64,000 nt of DNA from Alphaproteobacteria bacterium (GTDB taxonomy: Bacteria; Pseudomonadota; Alphaproteobacteria; JANQMY01). Where the stretch lies: assembly GCA_028289425.1 (NCBI GenBank), contig JANQPL010000018.1:62001-126000 (forward strand), in the 5' to 3' direction. This document shows positions 4,183 to 60,351 of the stretch, piece after piece; the first letter of the stretch is position 1; each line of letters begins with the position of its first letter. The translations under genes were made by a program, and so were the position numbers. A model generated the notes under the pieces. The model did not search any database. It was not told the DNA's origin and saw only the letters and a list, made by a program, of their open reading frames with translations.

Positions 4183-7100
4183 GTGAAATCATTTGCCTCA
4201 AAGTTTTTGTGGCGGTTTGCCGCCTTCACGGGACTGGTCGTCATTGTTTTGACGACTCTGCTCGCCGGTCGGCTCATGACTGGGCCGGTCTCGCTGGGGC
4301 CCCTCACCACTTACGTAGAACGCAATCTAAACGAAACCCTAGAGGGTCTGCAGGTTGAGGTTGGCGATCTCGTTGTGCGCTGGTCCGCTGCCGAGCGCGA
4401 CCTGCAGATAAGATTGGTCGATGTGTTGCTCCAGGCGGACAGAGGCAGCACGGTTGCCAAGGTTCCGGAAATGGAAGTGGCGCTGAGCGCCATCGGCGTC
4501 GTGCGCGGCGTAATCGCACCCACGCGCATTCAGTTGATTGGTCCTTCGGCGACCATCATCAGGCGGAATGATGGCTCTTTTAATGTCGGTGTGGGTGGTG
4601 AGGACGTGAACGCGACATCGGCGGCGGACGAAACCAAGCCAATTCTCGAACGGGTTATGGAGCTGTTTCTCGCCAATAAGGCGGCAAACGATCCAGGCGC
4701 CTACCTTCACGCAATCGAAATCACAAATGCCAAGCTCGTTTTTTACGATCAGCCTAGCCGCACATATTGGCAGGCCCCTGATGCGGTGCTGGGTTTGCGG
4801 AAACAAAAGGAAGGTATCTCTGGATACGTCTCGGCGGCACTAGACTTTGGCGGCGATCCTTGGCGATTGGATGTTTCGGGGTTTCTCGACCCGGCAACCA
4901 AATTCCTTGATATCGAAGGCCAATTCGAGAGCGTCGTTTTGTCGAAACTTCAAAGCGTGGGCGAGGGGTTTGACATTTTCAAAGGGGTGAACCTCCCTCT
5001 CTCCGGGACCTATACCCTGGTCATGAAATCGGACGGCGAATTGGTAACGGCCGAAGCCGAGCTTTCGTCTCAGATGGGGGCGATTGCGCCCCCATTTTTC
5101 AATGGCGATGCTTTGAATGTTGAAACGGCGACGGCCGATATTGAGTTTGACGCATCAACCGGCCGAGTGCTGATCGATCATCTTCAAGTTCAAGCTGTAG
5201 AGGGCTCGTTTGGCGCGGTTGGCACGCTTGACCTTGCCCGCAGCAACAGGGGCGCATTGAAGGCGGCTTACTTTGATGTGCAGGTATCGGACATTTGGCT
5301 GAATTTGCCGAATGTTTTCACCGAACCTGGCGGGGTCGACCATTTGGCCCTGAGAGGGCGGTGGGCATCGGCTACCGATAAGCTGGAAATCGAGTCGGCG
5401 TTTCTGCGTGCGGGCGACAGCAATCTTCAAGTCTCCGGTTTGATCGAAGATTTTGGAACGGAGTCCCCACCGATAAAGTTAGAGGGGCAATTCACAAAGT
5501 TTGATGTGGATCGGCTGCCGTCACTTTGGCCCATTCGCATGGCCAATGGTGCCCATGACTGGGTTGTCGCCAACCTTAAGGACGGGCAACTTTATGACGG
5601 TAAGTTGGTAGTAGATTTGCCAGCCGGGGCACTCGACAATCCGAAACTGCCTGACGAGGCGTTGAGGCTTGATTTCTCTTATTCGGGTATCACGGCTCGC
5701 TACATCAACGGCCTGCCCCCGATAAAACGCGGCAAGGGCAACGCGACCCTGTTTGGCGACCGTTTCGAGCTCAACATGAGTGGCGGCGCCACGGGAGACA
5801 TGAACGTTAGTAACGGCCGGGTCGTCATTACGGAATTACACCGCAAGCCTTCTCTGGGAAATATCTCCGTTCTGCTCAGTGGAGATACGTCAGAACTCTT
5901 GAGAATTCTCGATATGGAACCATTGGGCTATCCCAGTGATTTTGGCGTGGATCCTGAGTCGGTCGGCGGTACGACGGTCCTGAAGCTCGAGGTGGCATTA
6001 CCAATGATCCGCGATTTGGCATTTCGGGACGTAGATTTCGATGGCCAGGCCGCGCTGTCACGGTTGAGTATTCCCGACGTGATCAATGACGTCGGTGTCG
6101 ACGACGGCGCTGCTGAGATAAAGGTGACCAATACGCACCTCGATGCAATCGGTGTACTGAACATCGGCACACTCGACGTAAGTGTTACATGGCGCGAGGA
6201 CTTCGAGACGACCGACCTGTCAACTGAAATAATGTTGACGTCCAATTTGGATGGCGCGGACGCGAAGGTGTTCGGAGTCGACTTAACTAATGTGCTTATG
6301 TCGGATGCAAGGGTTGAGTTGAATCTGCAGGGAAATGGTCAGGACGTTAAGTTGGCCATGCTCGAAGCGGACTTCACCAACGCAGTCATTGATATTGGCG
6401 AGATGGGGTGGCGGAAACAAGCAGGCCGGCCCGCCAGGGGTCAGATAGAGGTTGAGCCCAGGGCCTCGGGCGGTTGGGATTTCAAGCGCATTGATTTTGA
6501 TGCTGAAGACTCGAGTTTGCGGGGGCGTGTCGAAGTTGCCCCATCGGGGATTATCGAAAAAGCAGAATTCGATACATTTAAGCTTGGCGAGGAAACGGAT
6601 GCGGTCATCGATTATACGAACTCGCCAAGGGCCACGGCTTTGTCGGTCAAAGGAGAGGCGCTCAACATCAGCGGCCTGATCGATCGGATACTCGAAAACA
6701 CAACCTCATCGACGGAAGAGGCTGATCGATTCAAATCGCTCGATGTGGAGCTTTCTCTTGATGAATTGACGTTGGCGAATGGCGTCATACTCAAAGACGT
6801 TAAAGGCGAACTTCACGACAGCGGTGGGCGGATCGAAGAAGCTGATTTTGAAGGATCGTTCGTCGACGGTGGCGTCGTCTTTGCGAAGATCGAAGCGATG
6901 AGCGAGTTCGAGCGTGGCATGCGGCTGACGGCATCGGATGCGGGTAAACTGCTTCGTGGCGTTGATTTCACGGATCAATTGCTGGATGGACGGCTCAATG
7001 TTTTCGCAAAGCTCACGGAGCTTGCAAATGACGAACCTGTGCGAAGCCAGGGTGACGGCACTGATTTCTCGTTGGTGACGAATGGTGAACTGTCCATCGA

Positions 7101-7578
7101 GAACTTTCGTGTGGTCAACGCGCCGATCTTAGCCCAACTGCTAATCGCGGGGTCGCCCCAAGGTGCTCAGGATTTGCTGAACCGAGACGGCATCGGATTT
7201 GACCGTTTTTTTGTGCCCTTCATGATCAAGAATGGCCGCATTAGTTTTGACCGGAGCCAAGCACTCGGTCCCGCGATTGGCATTACCGTAGGCGGATCAA
7301 TTGATCAGAATGACGATACATTGGATCTCACAGGAACCATCGTGCCGTCCTATTCGATCAATAGCGCCATCGGCTATGTTCCGGTGGTTGGTCAACTTCT
7401 GGTATCGCGAGATGGCGAAGGACTATTTGCCTTCACCTACAATATTGAGGGACCGGTCGAGGAGCCGAGAATTGCCGTCAACCCGCTGTCGGGACTTGCG
7501 CCTGGTTTCCTGCGGCGCATTTTCCAGATCGGCCAAAACGGGCCGATCGTTCCCAAGATAAAACCGGGCGAGCCTTGA
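4183..7578 (+). CDS. AsmA/YhdP-like envelope protein (DUF3971 and AsmA_2 regions)
   Basis: A very large protein (1131 aa from GTG 4183) with a single N-terminal transmembrane helix (residues about 10-30, AAFTGLVVIVLTTLLAGRL) and a long periplasmic part made of beta-rich repeats. The C-terminus has the AsmA-like signature (LAQLLIAGSPQGAQDLLNRDGIGFD, then VGGSIDQNDDTLDLTGTIVP and a final IEGPVEEPRIAVNPLSGLAPG). Related AsmA-clan proteins (YhdP, TamB, YdbH) form hydrophobic grooves that bridge the periplasm and carry phospholipid to the outer membrane; that role is inferred here. The frame is open from TTG 4126, but GTG 4183 gives a short basic N-terminus before the helix and has AAGGGG 12 nt upstream, so I prefer it. 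It is divergent from bcp and ends 7 bp before the convergent tyrS stop. Confidence 0.85.
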   Translation: MKSFASKFLWRFAAFTGLVVIVLTTLLAGRLMTGPVSLGPLTTYVERNLNETLEGLQVEVGDLVVRWSAAERDLQIRLVDVLLQADRGSTVAKVPEMEVALSAIGVVRGVIAPTRIQLIGPSATIIRRNDGSFNVGVGGEDVNATSAADETKPILERVMELFLANKAANDPGAYLHAIEITNAKLVFYDQPSRTYWQAPDAVLGLRKQKEGISGYVSAALDFGGDPWRLDVSGFLDPATKFLDIEGQFESVVLSKLQSVGEGFDIFKGVNLPLSGTYTLVMKSDGELVTAEAELSSQMGAIAPPFFNGDALNVETATADIEFDASTGRVLIDHLQVQAVEGSFGAVGTLDLARSNRGALKAAYFDVQVSDIWLNLPNVFTEPGGVDHLALRGRWASATDKLEIESAFLRAGDSNLQVSGLIEDFGTESPPIKLEGQFTKFDVDRLPSLWPIRMANGAHDWVVANLKDGQLYDGKLVVDLPAGALDNPKLPDEALRLDFSYSGITARYINGLPPIKRGKGNATLFGDRFELNMSGGATGDMNVSNGRVVITELHRKPSLGNISVLLSGDTSELLRILDMEPLGYPSDFGVDPESVGGTTVLKLEVALPMIRDLAFRDVDFDGQAALSRLSIPDVINDVGVDDGAAEIKVTNTHLDAIGVLNIGTLDVSVTWREDFETTDLSTEIMLTSNLDGADAKVFGVDLTNVLMSDARVELNLQGNGQDVKLAMLEADFTNAVIDIGEMGWRKQAGRPARGQIEVEPRASGGWDFKRIDFDAEDSSLRGRVEVAPSGIIEKAEFDTFKLGEETDAVIDYTNSPRATALSVKGEALNISGLIDRILENTTSSTEEADRFKSLDVELSLDELTLANGVILKDVKGELHDSGGRIEEADFEGSFVDGGVVFAKIEAMSEFERGMRLTASDAGKLLRGVDFTDQLLDGRLNVFAKLTELANDEPVRSQGDGTDFSLVTNGELSIENFRVVNAPILAQLLIAGSPQGAQDLLNRDGIGFDRFFVPFMIKNGRISFDRSQALGPAIGITVGGSIDQNDDTLDLTGTIVPSYSINSAIGYVPVVGQLLVSRDGEGLFAFTYNIEGPVEEPRIAVNPLSGLAPGFLRRIFQIGQNGPIVPKIKPGEP

Positions 7579-7585
7579 TCCCGGT

Positions 7586-8839
7586 TCATACCGGCTTGAT
7601 CAAGACGTGTTTCTTCTTGCCAAGCGAGACCTTTATCATGCCGTCCGCATTCAGGTCGCCCTCGCTGACAGTCGCCTTTTCGTCCGTCACGGCCTTGTCA
7701 TTGATGCGGACGCCGCCGCCCTTAATGTCGCGCCTCGCGGCACTGGCTGAAGCGCTTAATCCCGCATGATGCACCAGCTTCGCGGTCAACAAGCCTTGCG
7801 CGAGAACGTCCTTCTCCAGTTCGATCGTCGGCAGGTCCGTCGAGGTGAGGCCTTGTTCGAACGTCTGGCGTGCCGTTTCCGCAGCAAGGTCAGCAGCTTC
7901 CCTGCCATGGGCCAATGCTGTGGCCTCATTGGCCAATACCTTCTTCGCTTCGTTGATCTCGTTTCCCGCAAGCGCTTCCAGTTTGCCGATTTCGTCCATC
8001 GGCAAATCCGTAAACAGTCTCAGGAAACGTCCAACATCCGCATCCTCTGTGTTGCGCCAATATTGCCAGTAGTCATAGGGTGACAGCTCATCTTCGTTGA
8101 GCCAAACGGCACCCGACGCCGTCTTACCCATTTTTGCGCCGGAAGATGTGGTTATGAGGGGGCAGGTAAGGCCATAGAGGGATGTCCCGTTGAGTCGGCG
8201 CCCCAGCTCCACGCCGTTGACAATATTGCCCCATTGATCCGAGCCGCCGGTCTGTAGCGTGCACCCATACCGCTGGTTCAGCACGACAAAATCGTAGGCT
8301 TGCAGGATCATATAATTGAATTCCAGGAACGTAAGCGGCTGTTCTCGGTCCAAGCGCAGCTTGACACTGTCGAACGTCAGCATACGGTTGATTGTGAAGT
8401 GCGGTCCGATGTCCCGCAGAAGCGAGATGTAACCGAGACCTTCTAGCCAATCTGAATTATTGACCATTTGGGCATCGGTCGCTCGGTCGCCGATGGTTAA
8501 GAAGCGGCTGAAAGATCGGCCGATGGACGCAATGTTGTCGTCGATCGCTTTGTCGTCCAGCATTTTGCGGCTTTCGTCTTTGCCACTCGGATCCCCGATT
8601 TTGGTGGTGCCTCCACCCAATAGAATGATCGGTTTATGGCCGGTGCGCTGAAGAATACGCAGCATCATGATCGGCAACAAATGGCCGACATGAAGGCTTG
8701 GCCCCGTACAATCAAAACCGTTATAGGCCGTGATGCAGCCGTCGGCCGCCGCAGCATCCAATGCCTCGGTATCCGTACACTGATGAATGTATCCGCGTTC
8801 GGTGAGAATGTGCAGCAGGTCAGATTTTAGCTTGGTCAT
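7586..8839 (-). CDS. tyrS: Tyrosine--tRNA ligase
   Basis: Class I aminoacyl-tRNA synthetase that charges tRNA-Tyr. At 417 aa it has the HIGH-type motif HVGH at residues 50-53 ([12 protein letters not shown]), the tyrosine-binding segments around residues 170-200 ([24 protein letters not shown]) and the KMSKS-type loop KMGKT at 236-240, a form usual for TyrS. The C-terminal part from about residue 340 is an S4-like RNA-binding domain ([27 protein letters not shown]). Start ATG at 8837-8839. The 3' end faces the AsmA-like gene with only 7 bp between stops. The alpha/beta hydrolase gene lies 75 bp upstream on the same strand. Confidence 0.97.
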
Positions 8840-8914
8840 CAGCCGGGCGTCATTTGTGTGGGCGCCGATGGTGAATTTCTATCATCGGGCGCGGATGCAT
8901 CGGTGAAATAGAGG

Positions 8915-9565
8915 CTAGTTATCCTGCGGCCCTAGTCTTTTATCCAAATACGCCTCTACGCGACTCATCAGTTCCGGAACCTGGTCGTCATAGAAGTGGT
9001 TGGCGCTAGGGATCTTTTCGTGATCGATAACGATCCCCTTTTGCTGTTTCAGTTTCTCGACCAGCTTGTCCACGTCGGGTTCGGGGACCACCTGGTCTGC
9101 TTGCCCATTAACGATGAGTCCGGAGGAGGGGCAAGGTGCCAGAAATGAGAAGTCGTACATGTTTGCCGGCGGCGAGATCGACAAAAATCCTGAAATCTCG
9201 GGCCGCCTCATAAGGAGCTGCATGCCGATCCAAGCGCCGAATGAAAAGCCGGCAATCCAGCAATCGGATGCGTTGGAGTTGATACTTTGCAACCAATCAA
9301 GCGCAGATGCGGCGTCCGACAATTCTCCAACCCCATTGTCGAATACGCCTTGGCTTCGCCCGACCCCCCTGAAATTGAACCGGAGAACGGAGAAGCCGCG
9401 TTTTTTGAAGGTGTAGAAAAGCTCATACGTGATCTGATTGTTCATCGTGCCGCCGAACTGCGGGTGAGGATGAAGGATCAGAGCGACAGGCGTTTTCTCG
9501 CCTTCGGTGTGTTGGTACCGGCCCTCAAGTCGGCCCGAGGGCCCGGTAAAGATGACTTCTGGCAT
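8915..9565 (-). CDS. Alpha/beta hydrolase of unknown substrate
   Basis: A 216-aa single-domain alpha/beta hydrolase with no signal peptide, so probably cytoplasmic. The nucleophile elbow is GFSFG with Ser108; D158 (NGQADQVVP) and H191 (SANHFYDD) complete a plausible triad. The HPHPQFGGTMNN motif near residue 33 fits the oxyanion region of a family of small bacterial hydrolases often annotated only as alpha/beta hydrolase. No substrate can be assigned. It lies upstream of tyrS on the same strand and is divergent from the suf operon, with a 351-bp gap to iscR. Confidence 0.88.
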   Translation of the reverse strand: MPEVIFTGPSGRLEGRYQHTEGEKTPVALILHPHPQFGGTMNNQITYELFYTFKKRGFSVLRFNFRGVGRSQGVFDNGVGELSDAASALDWLQSINSNASDCWIAGFSFGAWIGMQLLMRRPEISGFLSISPPANMYDFSFLAPCPSSGLIVNGQADQVVPEPDVDKLVEKLKQQKGIVIDHEKIPSANHFYDDQVPELMSRVEAYLDKRLGPQDN

Positions 9566-57979: not shown

Positions 57980-58231
57980 ATGTCCATATTCACTCAGATC
58001 GGTATTTTCTTTATTGTTTGGTGGGTTGTGCTTTTCGTGACGTTGCCACTATGGGTTCAAGGGCAAGTCGAGCAAGAGGAAGTCGAGCCTGGAACGGATC
58101 CGGGCGCTCCGGTTAATCCAAACCTTGGCCGCAAATTCCTACTAACAACCGCCATCGCATTGGTAGTCTCGATCGCGATTATCGCCGGGATTAATCTCGG
58201 GCTTTTTGATCGGTTTTACCAAAACAAATAA
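57980..58231 (+). CDS. DUF1467 family small membrane protein
   Basis: An 83-aa protein with two transmembrane helices (about 5-27 and 53-75) and a short polar loop rich in Glu and Pro (QVEQEEVEPGTDPGAP). The family is confined mostly to alphaproteobacteria and has no assigned function. Start ATG 57980, 11 bp after rnj, so the two genes likely share a transcript, which ends at the hairpin immediately after this gene. Confidence 0.9.
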   Translation: MSIFTQIGIFFIVWWVVLFVTLPLWVQGQVEQEEVEPGTDPGAPVNPNLGRKFLLTTAIALVVSIAIIAGINLGLFDRFYQNK

Positions 58232-58269
58232 GCAGAGCCCGTTTCCGGAGCTCTGCTTAAATGACCTTT
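58229..58269 (+). terminator. Terminator after the DUF1467 gene
   Basis: TAAGCAGAGC (58229-58238, starting in the stop codon) pairs perfectly over 10 bp with GCTCTGCTTA (58250-58259), loop 11 nt. A short T run (TTTTT, 58266-58270) follows after a 6-nt gap. Likely end of the nuo-birA-coaX-rnj-DUF1467 transcription region. Confidence 0.65.
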
Positions 58270-58611
58270 TTCCATCTCAATTTCGCTGAACTACCCGCAA
58301 TTGGGGCGAAATCAAGGTAGCCTCCCCAGACTTTGGCTGCTTTGAGCAGTTCCCTTTCAAAGGTGTCGCAATAATAAGTCCAGGTTTTAAGCCTGTCACG
58401 CAACTTTGTTATTTGGGCCGAAAAAAAAACGACAAACTATTGCGAAAACGTCACAGCCATATGGTTGACGGAGGCGCCTTGGTCGGGAAGGTGAGCACCT
58501 TGGGGCCGCTTGTAAACCAAGTTTGATTCCCGGGCCTTGACAGCGGCCAGTCTCCACGCGACCCTCCTTGGAAAGTGGGTCCAAAATTCCAGTATTTGAG
58601 TGAGGTAGTTG
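58270..58611. other. Intergenic region before the secreted protein gene
   Basis: A 342-bp gap. I see no gene of recognised family, RNA gene or repeat. A TTGACA occurs at 58537-58542 on plus but has no matching -10 box at 16-18 bp, so no promoter can be assigned with confidence. GAGG at 58602-58605 is the probable ribosome site of the next gene. An A-rich tract (AAAAAAAAA) lies around 58420-58430. Confidence 0.5.
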
Positions 58612-60270
58612 GTGAAAAAGGGGGTAGTGATCGGCGGATTGCTGAGCGTTCTCCTTGCGTTTGGAGAGGCCGCGGCCGCCGAATGGCGCGTTAGCAAGAC
58701 CAGTTGGTCTGCAGCCGATGAAGAGAAGTTTGGGGAATTTGTCCGGTCGATCGGCGAAAGTGATTGTAACACGGTCACTTCCTGTTTGGCCGGCTCTGCA
58801 AATCCTTATCGAAGCACCGATCCAAAGGGGTTGCGTTTCGTTGCCGACTGTGCGGATCTGCCGTATCTGCTTCGGGGCTATTTTGCCTGGAAAATGGAGC
58901 TCCCCTTCACTTACGTGAACAGCGTTTATTTGAACAGCGCGGCGGACGGGGATCCGCGCTTTTCGAAATCCGGAAACCGTGTTGGATCGCGTACGTCGGT
59001 TAAACTGGCGCCGACGGGAGGCGGGACGAACGCTGTTTCGTTTCTGAAGACCATCCGCAATGTGGTTTCTTCGGCCACGTTCCGCACATCACCCGAATTC
59101 AATCGATATCCTTATTCGGACTTCTATTCTCCCGAGATCAATAGAGAGTCCGTTCGTGCGGGCACAGTCATTTATGACATTAATGGCCATGTAGCTGTGG
59201 TTTACAAAGTCGGAACAGATGGGCGGATCTACTACATTGATGCTCATCCCGATAACACGCTGACCAGAAGCATTTATGGCCGGCAAATCCCTCGTACGGA
59301 CCCGGAACTCGGCGCAGGGTTTAAAAACTGGCGACCCGTCAAGGTGATCAATGCTGAGCGCGACGATAACGGCACGGTCGTCGGGGGCAAGATCACACTA
59401 GAGAAGAACGAGAACATCCCCGACCATTCAACGGTCCAGTACTTCGGCACCGAACCCAATCCCGACGAAAACTGGGAGCTGGCCGAATACACCTATGGCG
59501 ACCAAGCGGTCCAGTATTACGAATTCGTCCGTCATGCCATGGCCGACGGCGATCTGGTTTATGACCCGATCTTCGAGCTCCGGGCCATGATGCAGGGCCT
59601 GTGTCAGGACATCCAGGATCGCGGGTTGGCGGTTGACGCCGCCATTCGGCAAGGGATCCATCAAAAGCCGGCCCCGGATCGGTTGCCAGACAATATTTAT
59701 GGCACCCATGGGGAATGGGAAATCTATTCGTCTCCCTCTCGGGATGCACGTCTGAAGACCAAGTTCAAAGAGCTGCGCGATCAAATCGCCTATTTCGCGG
59801 ACCTATACTACCAATGGGATTCGCGCGTGGTATTTTCGGGCTCAAGCCTGAAGCGCGCGCTCTTGCCGGTCTACGAGGAAGAAGCTGCTGCGTGCACGTA
59901 CACCTACACGAACAGCAGCGGCAAACCGGTGACACTGAGTTTTCAACAAATATCGGACCGACTCTTCGATCTGTCTTTCGACCCCTACCACTGCATTGAA
60001 CGCCGTTGGGGGGCCACGGAACGGCCGGAGATTTCTTCCTGTAAAGATGGCCGCAAGAAGCGCCGCTGGTACGAGGCCCAACAAAATCTACGCAATCAAA
60101 TAGACCGCACCTACGATGCGTTTATGGGACATTCGGCGGAAGAGCTCCTTCAGCCGGGCGGCGAGGGCAAAGGCGTGGCGGAAGCCCCGGATATCGACGT
60201 GAAATCGTTGATCGAGAGTTTTCACATTCGCCCCGTACCGCCGGGACCGGAGCGCGAAAGCGAAAGCTGA
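58612..60270 (+). CDS. Secreted protein of unknown function with cysteine-peptidase-like Cys/His/Asp signature
   Basis: I cannot name this family. The 552-aa protein has a Sec signal peptide: KK, hydrophobic GVVIGGLLSVLLAF, then cleavage near AAAAE (about residue 23), so the mature protein is periplasmic or outside. The N-terminal half carries Cys80 in FVADCADLPYLLRGYFAW, His193 in YDINGHVAVVYKV and Asp210 in IYYIDAHPDNTL. Order, spacing and the local patterns (Cys at the start of a helix, His in a GHVAxV strand, Asp on the next strand) are those of NlpC/P60, CHAP or amidase-like papain folds. The C-terminal half (from about 300) is alpha-rich, with a pair of segments near 410-430 and 480-490 and eight Cys overall (several in CTYTYTNSSG, CIERRWG and SSCKDGRKKRRW). 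No peptidoglycan-binding repeat is visible. Start is GTG 58612 with GAGG upstream. Its gene stands alone between two terminators. Confidence 0.75.
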   Translation: MKKGVVIGGLLSVLLAFGEAAAAEWRVSKTSWSAADEEKFGEFVRSIGESDCNTVTSCLAGSANPYRSTDPKGLRFVADCADLPYLLRGYFAWKMELPFTYVNSVYLNSAADGDPRFSKSGNRVGSRTSVKLAPTGGGTNAVSFLKTIRNVVSSATFRTSPEFNRYPYSDFYSPEINRESVRAGTVIYDINGHVAVVYKVGTDGRIYYIDAHPDNTLTRSIYGRQIPRTDPELGAGFKNWRPVKVINAERDDNGTVVGGKITLEKNENIPDHSTVQYFGTEPNPDENWELAEYTYGDQAVQYYEFVRHAMADGDLVYDPIFELRAMMQGLCQDIQDRGLAVDAAIRQGIHQKPAPDRLPDNIYGTHGEWEIYSSPSRDARLKTKFKELRDQIAYFADLYYQWDSRVVFSGSSLKRALLPVYEEEAAACTYTYTNSSGKPVTLSFQQISDRLFDLSFDPYHCIERRWGATERPEISSCKDGRKKRRWYEAQQNLRNQIDRTYDAFMGHSAEELLQPGGEGKGVAEAPDIDVKSLIESFHIRPVPPGPERESES

Positions 60271-60322
60271 CCTTTTCTCCTCTAGGGTGTTCGGGCAATC
60301 TTTTCATAGTATGGTTTAACGG

Positions 60323-60351
60323 CGGTCATCGATTCGGATGATCGTCTTTTT
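60323..60351 (+). terminator. Rho-independent terminator before proS
   Basis: CGGTCATC (60323-60330) pairs with GATGATCG (60337-60344, one GU pair) around a 6-nt loop, followed by TCTTTTT. It ends 20 bp before the proS ATG. It either ends the transcript of the secreted protein or, if proS is read through, acts as a leader element. Confidence 0.6.

Follow-up and report, generated by a model that had tools for sequence, protein, structure and literature searches.

A secreted, probably papain-like cysteine hydrolase family distantly related to DUF4846 in alphaproteobacteria and Myxococcota

Introduction

The window considered here is a stretch of 64,000 nucleotides of alphaproteobacterial DNA, and one of its genes encodes a secreted protein in which a first-pass annotation had recognized a hydrolase-like signature formed by Cys80, His193 and Asp210. 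The locus raises the question of what kind of enzyme, if any, this protein represents, and on what substrate it would act. The reading that we favor, with a probability of roughly two in three, is that of a secreted papain-like cysteine hydrolase belonging to an undescribed family, distantly related to both DUF4846 and the NlpC/P60-CHAP enzymes, that would cleave the peptides of peptidoglycan. The features of the gene and its surroundings are collected in Table 1.

Table 1. Coordinates (positions in the window), strand and supporting evidence for the gene, its predicted protein regions and the flanking elements
Feature	Position	Strand	Evidence or remark
Hairpin, putative terminator	58229..58259	.	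between upstream gene (57980-58231) and family gene
Possible own promoter: TTGACA, 17-nt spacer, GACCCT	58537..58565	+	-35-like block kept in G001
Gene for 552-residue secreted protein	58612..60270	+	ORF, relatives, dN/dS vs G001
Signal peptide, residues 1-23	58612..58680	+	read from sequence; hydrophobic leaders kept in relatives
N-terminal catalytic-type domain, about residues 24-290	58681..59481	+	short relatives, hhalign to DUF4846, VIA-align
Cys motif D79-C80-A-D-x-P-Y-x-L-R88-x-Y-F-A-W-K-x-x-L-P-F-x-Y	58846..58917	+	putative nucleophile Cys80
Strand pair R-x-G184-T-x-x-Y-D189-x-N-G-H193	59161..59211	+	putative general base His193
Third-residue strand D210-A-H212-P-D214	59239..59253	+	88-sequence conservation
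C-terminal domain, about residues 303-500, mostly helical	59518..60111	+	conservation
Hairpin and T-run (terminator or proS leader element)	60321..60346	+	between family gene and proS

The gene and its product

The open reading frame opens directly after a stop codon, with TTG at 58609 and GTG at 58612 as its possible starts, and runs to 60270. If the GTG is counted as residue 1, Cys80 is encoded at 58849-58851 within DCADLPYLLR, His193 at 59188-59190 within GHVAVVYKV, and Asp210 at 59239-59241 within YIDAHPD, so that the earlier coordinates and motif numbering are reproduced exactly. The counterpart protein in G001, another genome of this genus, is 85% identical, and the dN of 0.105 against a dS of about 2.5 (saturated) in this comparison indicates that the gene is under purifying selection; the downstream proS has a dN of 0.100 in the comparison with the same genome. 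The coding status of the frame is regarded as certain on the evidence listed in Table 1. Cleavage of the signal peptide is predicted, by eye, between MKKGVVIGGLLSVLLAFGEAAAA and EWRV, there is no lipobox cysteine, and the junction of AAAA and EW is the likely signal peptidase I site. The protein is probably located in the periplasm, from which it may possibly be released.

The family gene is probably transcribed by itself. The hairpins on its upstream and downstream sides both fold far better than shuffled sequences (z -6.2 and -5.1, respectively), and both are kept in G001, where the stem letters differ and the pairing is preserved (alignments read by eye). Terminator-like sites as a group number 9 vs 7.1 in shuffles, which represents no enrichment. 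The first-pass annotation had placed the gene between two terminators; hairpins are indeed found on both sides, although the second is possibly a proS leader rather than a terminator, because only about 25 nt separate its end from the ATG of proS. The region 60309-60351 has a conserved TATGGTT-AACGG ahead of this hairpin and its T-run, and may comprise the proS promoter together with a leader hairpin. The candidate promoter of the family gene itself is weak, its GACCCT hexamer not being sigma-70-like. In the upstream gap at 58262-58608, the blocks CCTCCCCAGACTTTGGCTGC, GCCTGTCACGCAACTTTGTTA and GGCCTTGACAGCG are conserved with G001, beyond the needs of a bare promoter, and a small RNA or leader is a possible occupant of this gap. 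An Rfam search around the gene, including the gap, gave no match.

Distribution of the family

The protein had been described as an orphan, a description that is contradicted by the finding of about 88 relatives, one of which is a second copy in the same genome. Among the 385 sampled alphaproteobacterial genomes, the family is present in 12, belonging to four family groups; it is also present in two further genomes of a Pseudomonadota-wide sample, and in 67 of the 284 sampled Myxococcota genomes. The second copy in the window genome (G000, L002) is a 605-residue frame at C5:337841-339499. It retains the Cys, the His and D210, and has Ser in place of H212 (DASPDN); its sister in G001 has Asn at position 212. 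A tree of the full-length proteins points to an old duplication into copies at the rnj/proS locus and copies elsewhere. A scan of the genome contigs in which a single sequence served as the query returned only two loci. Plasmid, phage and IMG/VR collections contained no relatives, and a phage or plasmid origin is therefore unsupported in the collections searched.

Conserved residues of the N-terminal domain

The N-terminal domain occurs by itself in short relatives (L011 4225-5214, L113 and L134), and at the first of these, in Myxococcota, the N-domain-only protein (4225-5214, minus strand) forms a divergent pair with a full-length member (5335-7440, plus strand). Seven residues, D79, C80, R88, Y172, G184, H193 and R241, are invariant in the alignment of 88 sequences. 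The N-terminal domain has six Cys/His positions, and only C80 and H193 are conserved in all 88 members, with a Cys-His spacing that ranges from 96 to 181 residues across the family and is mostly 101-113. That the aligned family conserves a Cys-His dyad is beyond doubt. D189 is kept in 85 of the 88 sequences, as is D214.

The third member of the proposed Cys80-His193-Asp210 triad has fared less well. Position 210 is occupied by D in 74 sequences, E in 5, S in 5 and A in 4, so that homologues lacking one of the three residues, which the first-pass annotation had named as evidence against its own proposal, do exist, at D210 only, where the acid is lost in 9 of 88. Position 212 is Q in 51 sequences and H in 35 (H or Q in 86 of 88). 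All nine members with S or A at position 210 have H212, so that none of the 88 sequences lacks both an acidic residue at 210 and H212. Within the papain-like superfamily the third polar residue may be N, Q, D or E, and in some families H or S (PMC10318531); a residue of a permitted type is found in 88 of 88 members, a statement that concerns sequence only. D/E210 or H212 thus probably supplies the third residue, and D214 is another candidate.

Inactive enzyme families usually lose their catalytic residues. The retention of Cys80 and His193 in 88 of 88 sequences, over two phyla and in several paralogues, makes it very unlikely that these are non-enzymatic papain-fold proteins that recognize peptidoglycan, as proposed for DUF1175, even though inactive peptidoglycan-binding families with this fold, DUF1175 among them, are known (PMC10318531).

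Fold and kinship

The first-pass annotation recognized no family to which the protein could belong, and neither Pfam nor NCBIfam gives a match above its cut-off. In Pfam, the window protein has a sub-threshold CHAP (PF05257) match at the His strand, with 13.3 bits and an E-value of 0.13 against a gathering score of 26, and of 25 alphaproteobacterial members examined, 16 likewise have weak CHAP matches at that strand (best E 0.028). The window protein has no match to NLPC_P60 (PF00877) at its Pfam gathering score and none in NCBIfam. DUF4846 (PF16138) is absent from the Pfam matches of the 25 members at E<=10, and a PDB sequence search, with either the protein or the family profile, found no match.

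The strongest statistical link comes from the alignment of profiles with hhalign, for which a DUF4846 profile was built from members collected in Myxococcota. The alphaproteobacterial profile aligns to it with P 85.6% and E 5.5e-6, and the whole-family profile with P 73.9%, E 2.9e-5 and a score of 41.8; these are single pairwise E-values for a family that was picked for its likeness, and hence somewhat overstate significance, so that the fairer yardstick is the shuffled control, in which 60 block-shuffled alignments reached a maximum score of 26.4 (a reversed control scored 13.1). The alignment spans 107 columns and places Cys on Cys and His on His. DUF4846 has itself been proposed as an NlpC/P60-like cell-wall domain in a classification paper (PMC10318531), the only mention of it that our literature search returned, an experimental paper not being found.

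Two AlphaFold2 models, made from four input sequences each, are poor, with a mean pLDDT of 42-43, and in the second of them the block means rise to about 50-84 at residues 10-40, 60-70 and 160-200. In the low-pLDDT model the Cys lies 3 residues before a helix at 60-71, and the His just before a strand at 171-177. A Foldseek search of the model against the PDB gave no match at E<=0.001. Ranks 1-15 of a VIA-align comparison with the poor model are essentially all papain-fold cell-wall peptidases, including Ly7917, MepS, RipB, LysGH15, PlyC and LysK, at Z 6.2-3.8, all of which are below 8 and so amount to no proof; unrelated folds begin at Z 3.4. The low confidence of the models, and per-match statistics that are weak except for DUF4846, would be in keeping with a Cys-His pair in some different fold, such as a metal-binding site or another cysteine-enzyme scaffold, whose likeness to CHAP and NlpC is coincidental. 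Since the CHAP strand, the DUF4846 profile and the structural ranking are independent lines that agree, such a coincidence is scarcely credible. The assignment of the protein to the papain-fold (NlpC/P60, CHAP) class, as originally proposed, is supported by these last two lines, by the invariant Cys and His, and by the fusions described below.

Papain-like enzymes also include transglutaminases and acyltransferases (PMC10318531), and the Cys helix, with its C-x-D-x-x-x-L ... GLPxxY arrangement, looks by eye like the transglutaminase core, which hhalign also places at this helix. A papain-like transferase of transglutaminase or transpeptidase type, whose Cys-His center would couple an acyl group with amines or peptides, for example a protein or peptide onto peptidoglycan, is nonetheless unlikely, as the fusion partner and the structural matches are hydrolases and the hhalign comparison with Transglut_core (PF01841) is at the level of noise (P 0.2%, E 0.32), on which basis kinship with transglutaminases was rejected.

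Domain fusions and genomic neighborhood

In at least 33 of the 47 long Myxococcota members, a Pfam NLPC_P60 domain precedes the family domain, and it is this upstream domain, rather than the family domain, that accounts for the NLPC_P60 matches; by pattern, the Cys motif is found in 35 of 63. A profile of the NlpC-fused proteins matches 3M1U, a gamma-D-Glu-diaminoacid endopeptidase, with E 5e-18, and also 6SQX. The 3M1U-like enzyme PnpA cleaves the gamma-D-Glu-mDAP bond and is directed against the peptidoglycan of other bacteria (PMC7860986). An alphaproteobacterial member in G319 has a C-terminal FGE-sulfatase domain fused instead of NlpC/P60. At L044, a family member with such a C-terminal fusion (6081-8663, minus strand; E 2e-54) is adjoined by a gene at 8723-9559, also on the minus strand, in which a motif like that of YkuD L,D-transpeptidases can be seen by eye.

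The C-terminal domain of the window protein has its own set of invariant residues, W369, D378, C461, E463, R465, W466, C477 and W486. A search for this domain without the N-terminal domain found none, the C-terminal domain occurring only in reading frames that also hold the N-terminal one.

The gene had been noted as lying beside Lol lipoprotein-export genes. The next gene is in fact proS, and lolC and lolD come after it. Seven genomes from three alphaproteobacterial family groups have, like the window, one copy between rnj and proS-lolC. A comparison of neighborhoods in the alphaproteobacteria found no consistently adjacent cell-wall genes and no cell-wall operon, the neighbors being rnj, proS and lolCD; these identities come from inspection of the sequence, and the greedy calling of reading frames is noisy in GC-rich loci. 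Such a position in several genomes, along with the long C-terminal domain and the presence of lipid amidases and proteases among papain-fold relatives (PMC10318531), could suggest a papain-like protease or amidase that acts on an envelope protein, a lipoprotein or a lipid and not on peptidoglycan. We consider this improbable, as lol and proS form a conserved housekeeping string, second copies of the family gene are located elsewhere, and the NlpC/P60 fusion points to peptidoglycan.

Proposed mechanism and significance

Most likely, the family cuts, or possibly re-links, peptidoglycan peptides. In the papain-like hydrolase that we propose, Cys80 would sit where the core helix begins and act as the nucleophile, attacking through its thiol, and His193 would activate it as a base from the neighboring strand. 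A polar residue of the strand that follows, either D/E210 or, where position 210 is non-acidic, His212, would in turn orient His193. An acyl-enzyme would then form on a peptide or amide bond of a peptidoglycan stem peptide and be hydrolyzed by water, with the C-terminal domain serving to position the substrate or to gate the active site.

A bolder proposal, which is possible but doubtful, is that of a separate non-GD papain-like family with an obligatory partner domain that carries out a new envelope reaction, such as transpeptidation or action on an unusual peptidoglycan bond. Some alphaproteobacteria would use such an enzyme by itself, and in the myxobacteria it would be paired with a gamma-D-Glu-diaminoacid endopeptidase, perhaps for use on foreign walls.

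As a peptidoglycan hydrolase, this unnamed family of about 88 members in two phyla would join the papain-like cell-wall hydrolases and provide a second anchor for the uncharacterized DUF4846. In Myxococcota it is often found within a lipoprotein-like NlpC/P60 enzyme, as the second module of catalytic type; its substrate can therefore be tested directly, and the family may bear on the remodeling or digestion of cell walls by myxobacteria.

Comparison with known systems

The closest relative appears to be DUF4846, which shares the QCAD/DCAD and PGH/xGH motifs in register and in which Cys and His are similarly far apart, at about 100 residues. However, DUF4846 has P-G-D before the His strand where the window family has P-G-T, and it is without the C-terminal domain. 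DUF4846 is frequent in Myxococcota, with 41 of 141 sampled genomes having it, and where both families are present in a genome they occupy separate loci; the DUF4846 reading frames have 248-1227 residues.

The CHAP enzymes LysK and LysGH15 are among the best structural matches and have the GHVAVV strand in common with the window protein, as well as the layout of Cys, His, acid at H+17 and polar residue at H+19. In LysK these residues are C54, H117, E134 and N136, of which E134 is less conserved, and its replacement in E134A only reduces activity (PMC4126393); in the window protein they correspond to D210 and H212 at the last two positions. As most Myxococcota members have a longer hairpin and an offset of +22, the H+17/+19 offset alone is weak evidence. 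The Cys-His spacing of LysK is 63, in contrast to the longer spacing of the window family, which also differs from CHAP in its extra C-terminal domain, its scores below the Pfam cut-off and its lack of a GD motif.

That motif, on beta-strand 1, characterizes the NlpC/P60-CHAP cluster (PMC10318531), and in the 88 sequences the residue after G184 is T in 72, A in 6, S in 5, V in 4 and I in 1, and never D. With the Pfam cut-offs missed and G-T typically replacing GD, the family is not to be filed as NlpC/P60-CHAP. The SH3b-type NlpC/P60 endopeptidases (3M1U DvLysin and PnpA), which are fused in many Myxococcota members and presumably share their compartment and chemistry, represent a different domain, a neighboring module that is missing from the window protein. 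Transglut_core is alike by eye, in having a Cys at the start of a helix followed by G-L/I-P-x-x-Y, but not by hhalign. The family is best described, from its predicted features, as NlpC/P60-CHAP-like in its working mode, yet as a separate, undescribed papain-like family that is sister to DUF4846 and has a C-terminal domain of its own.
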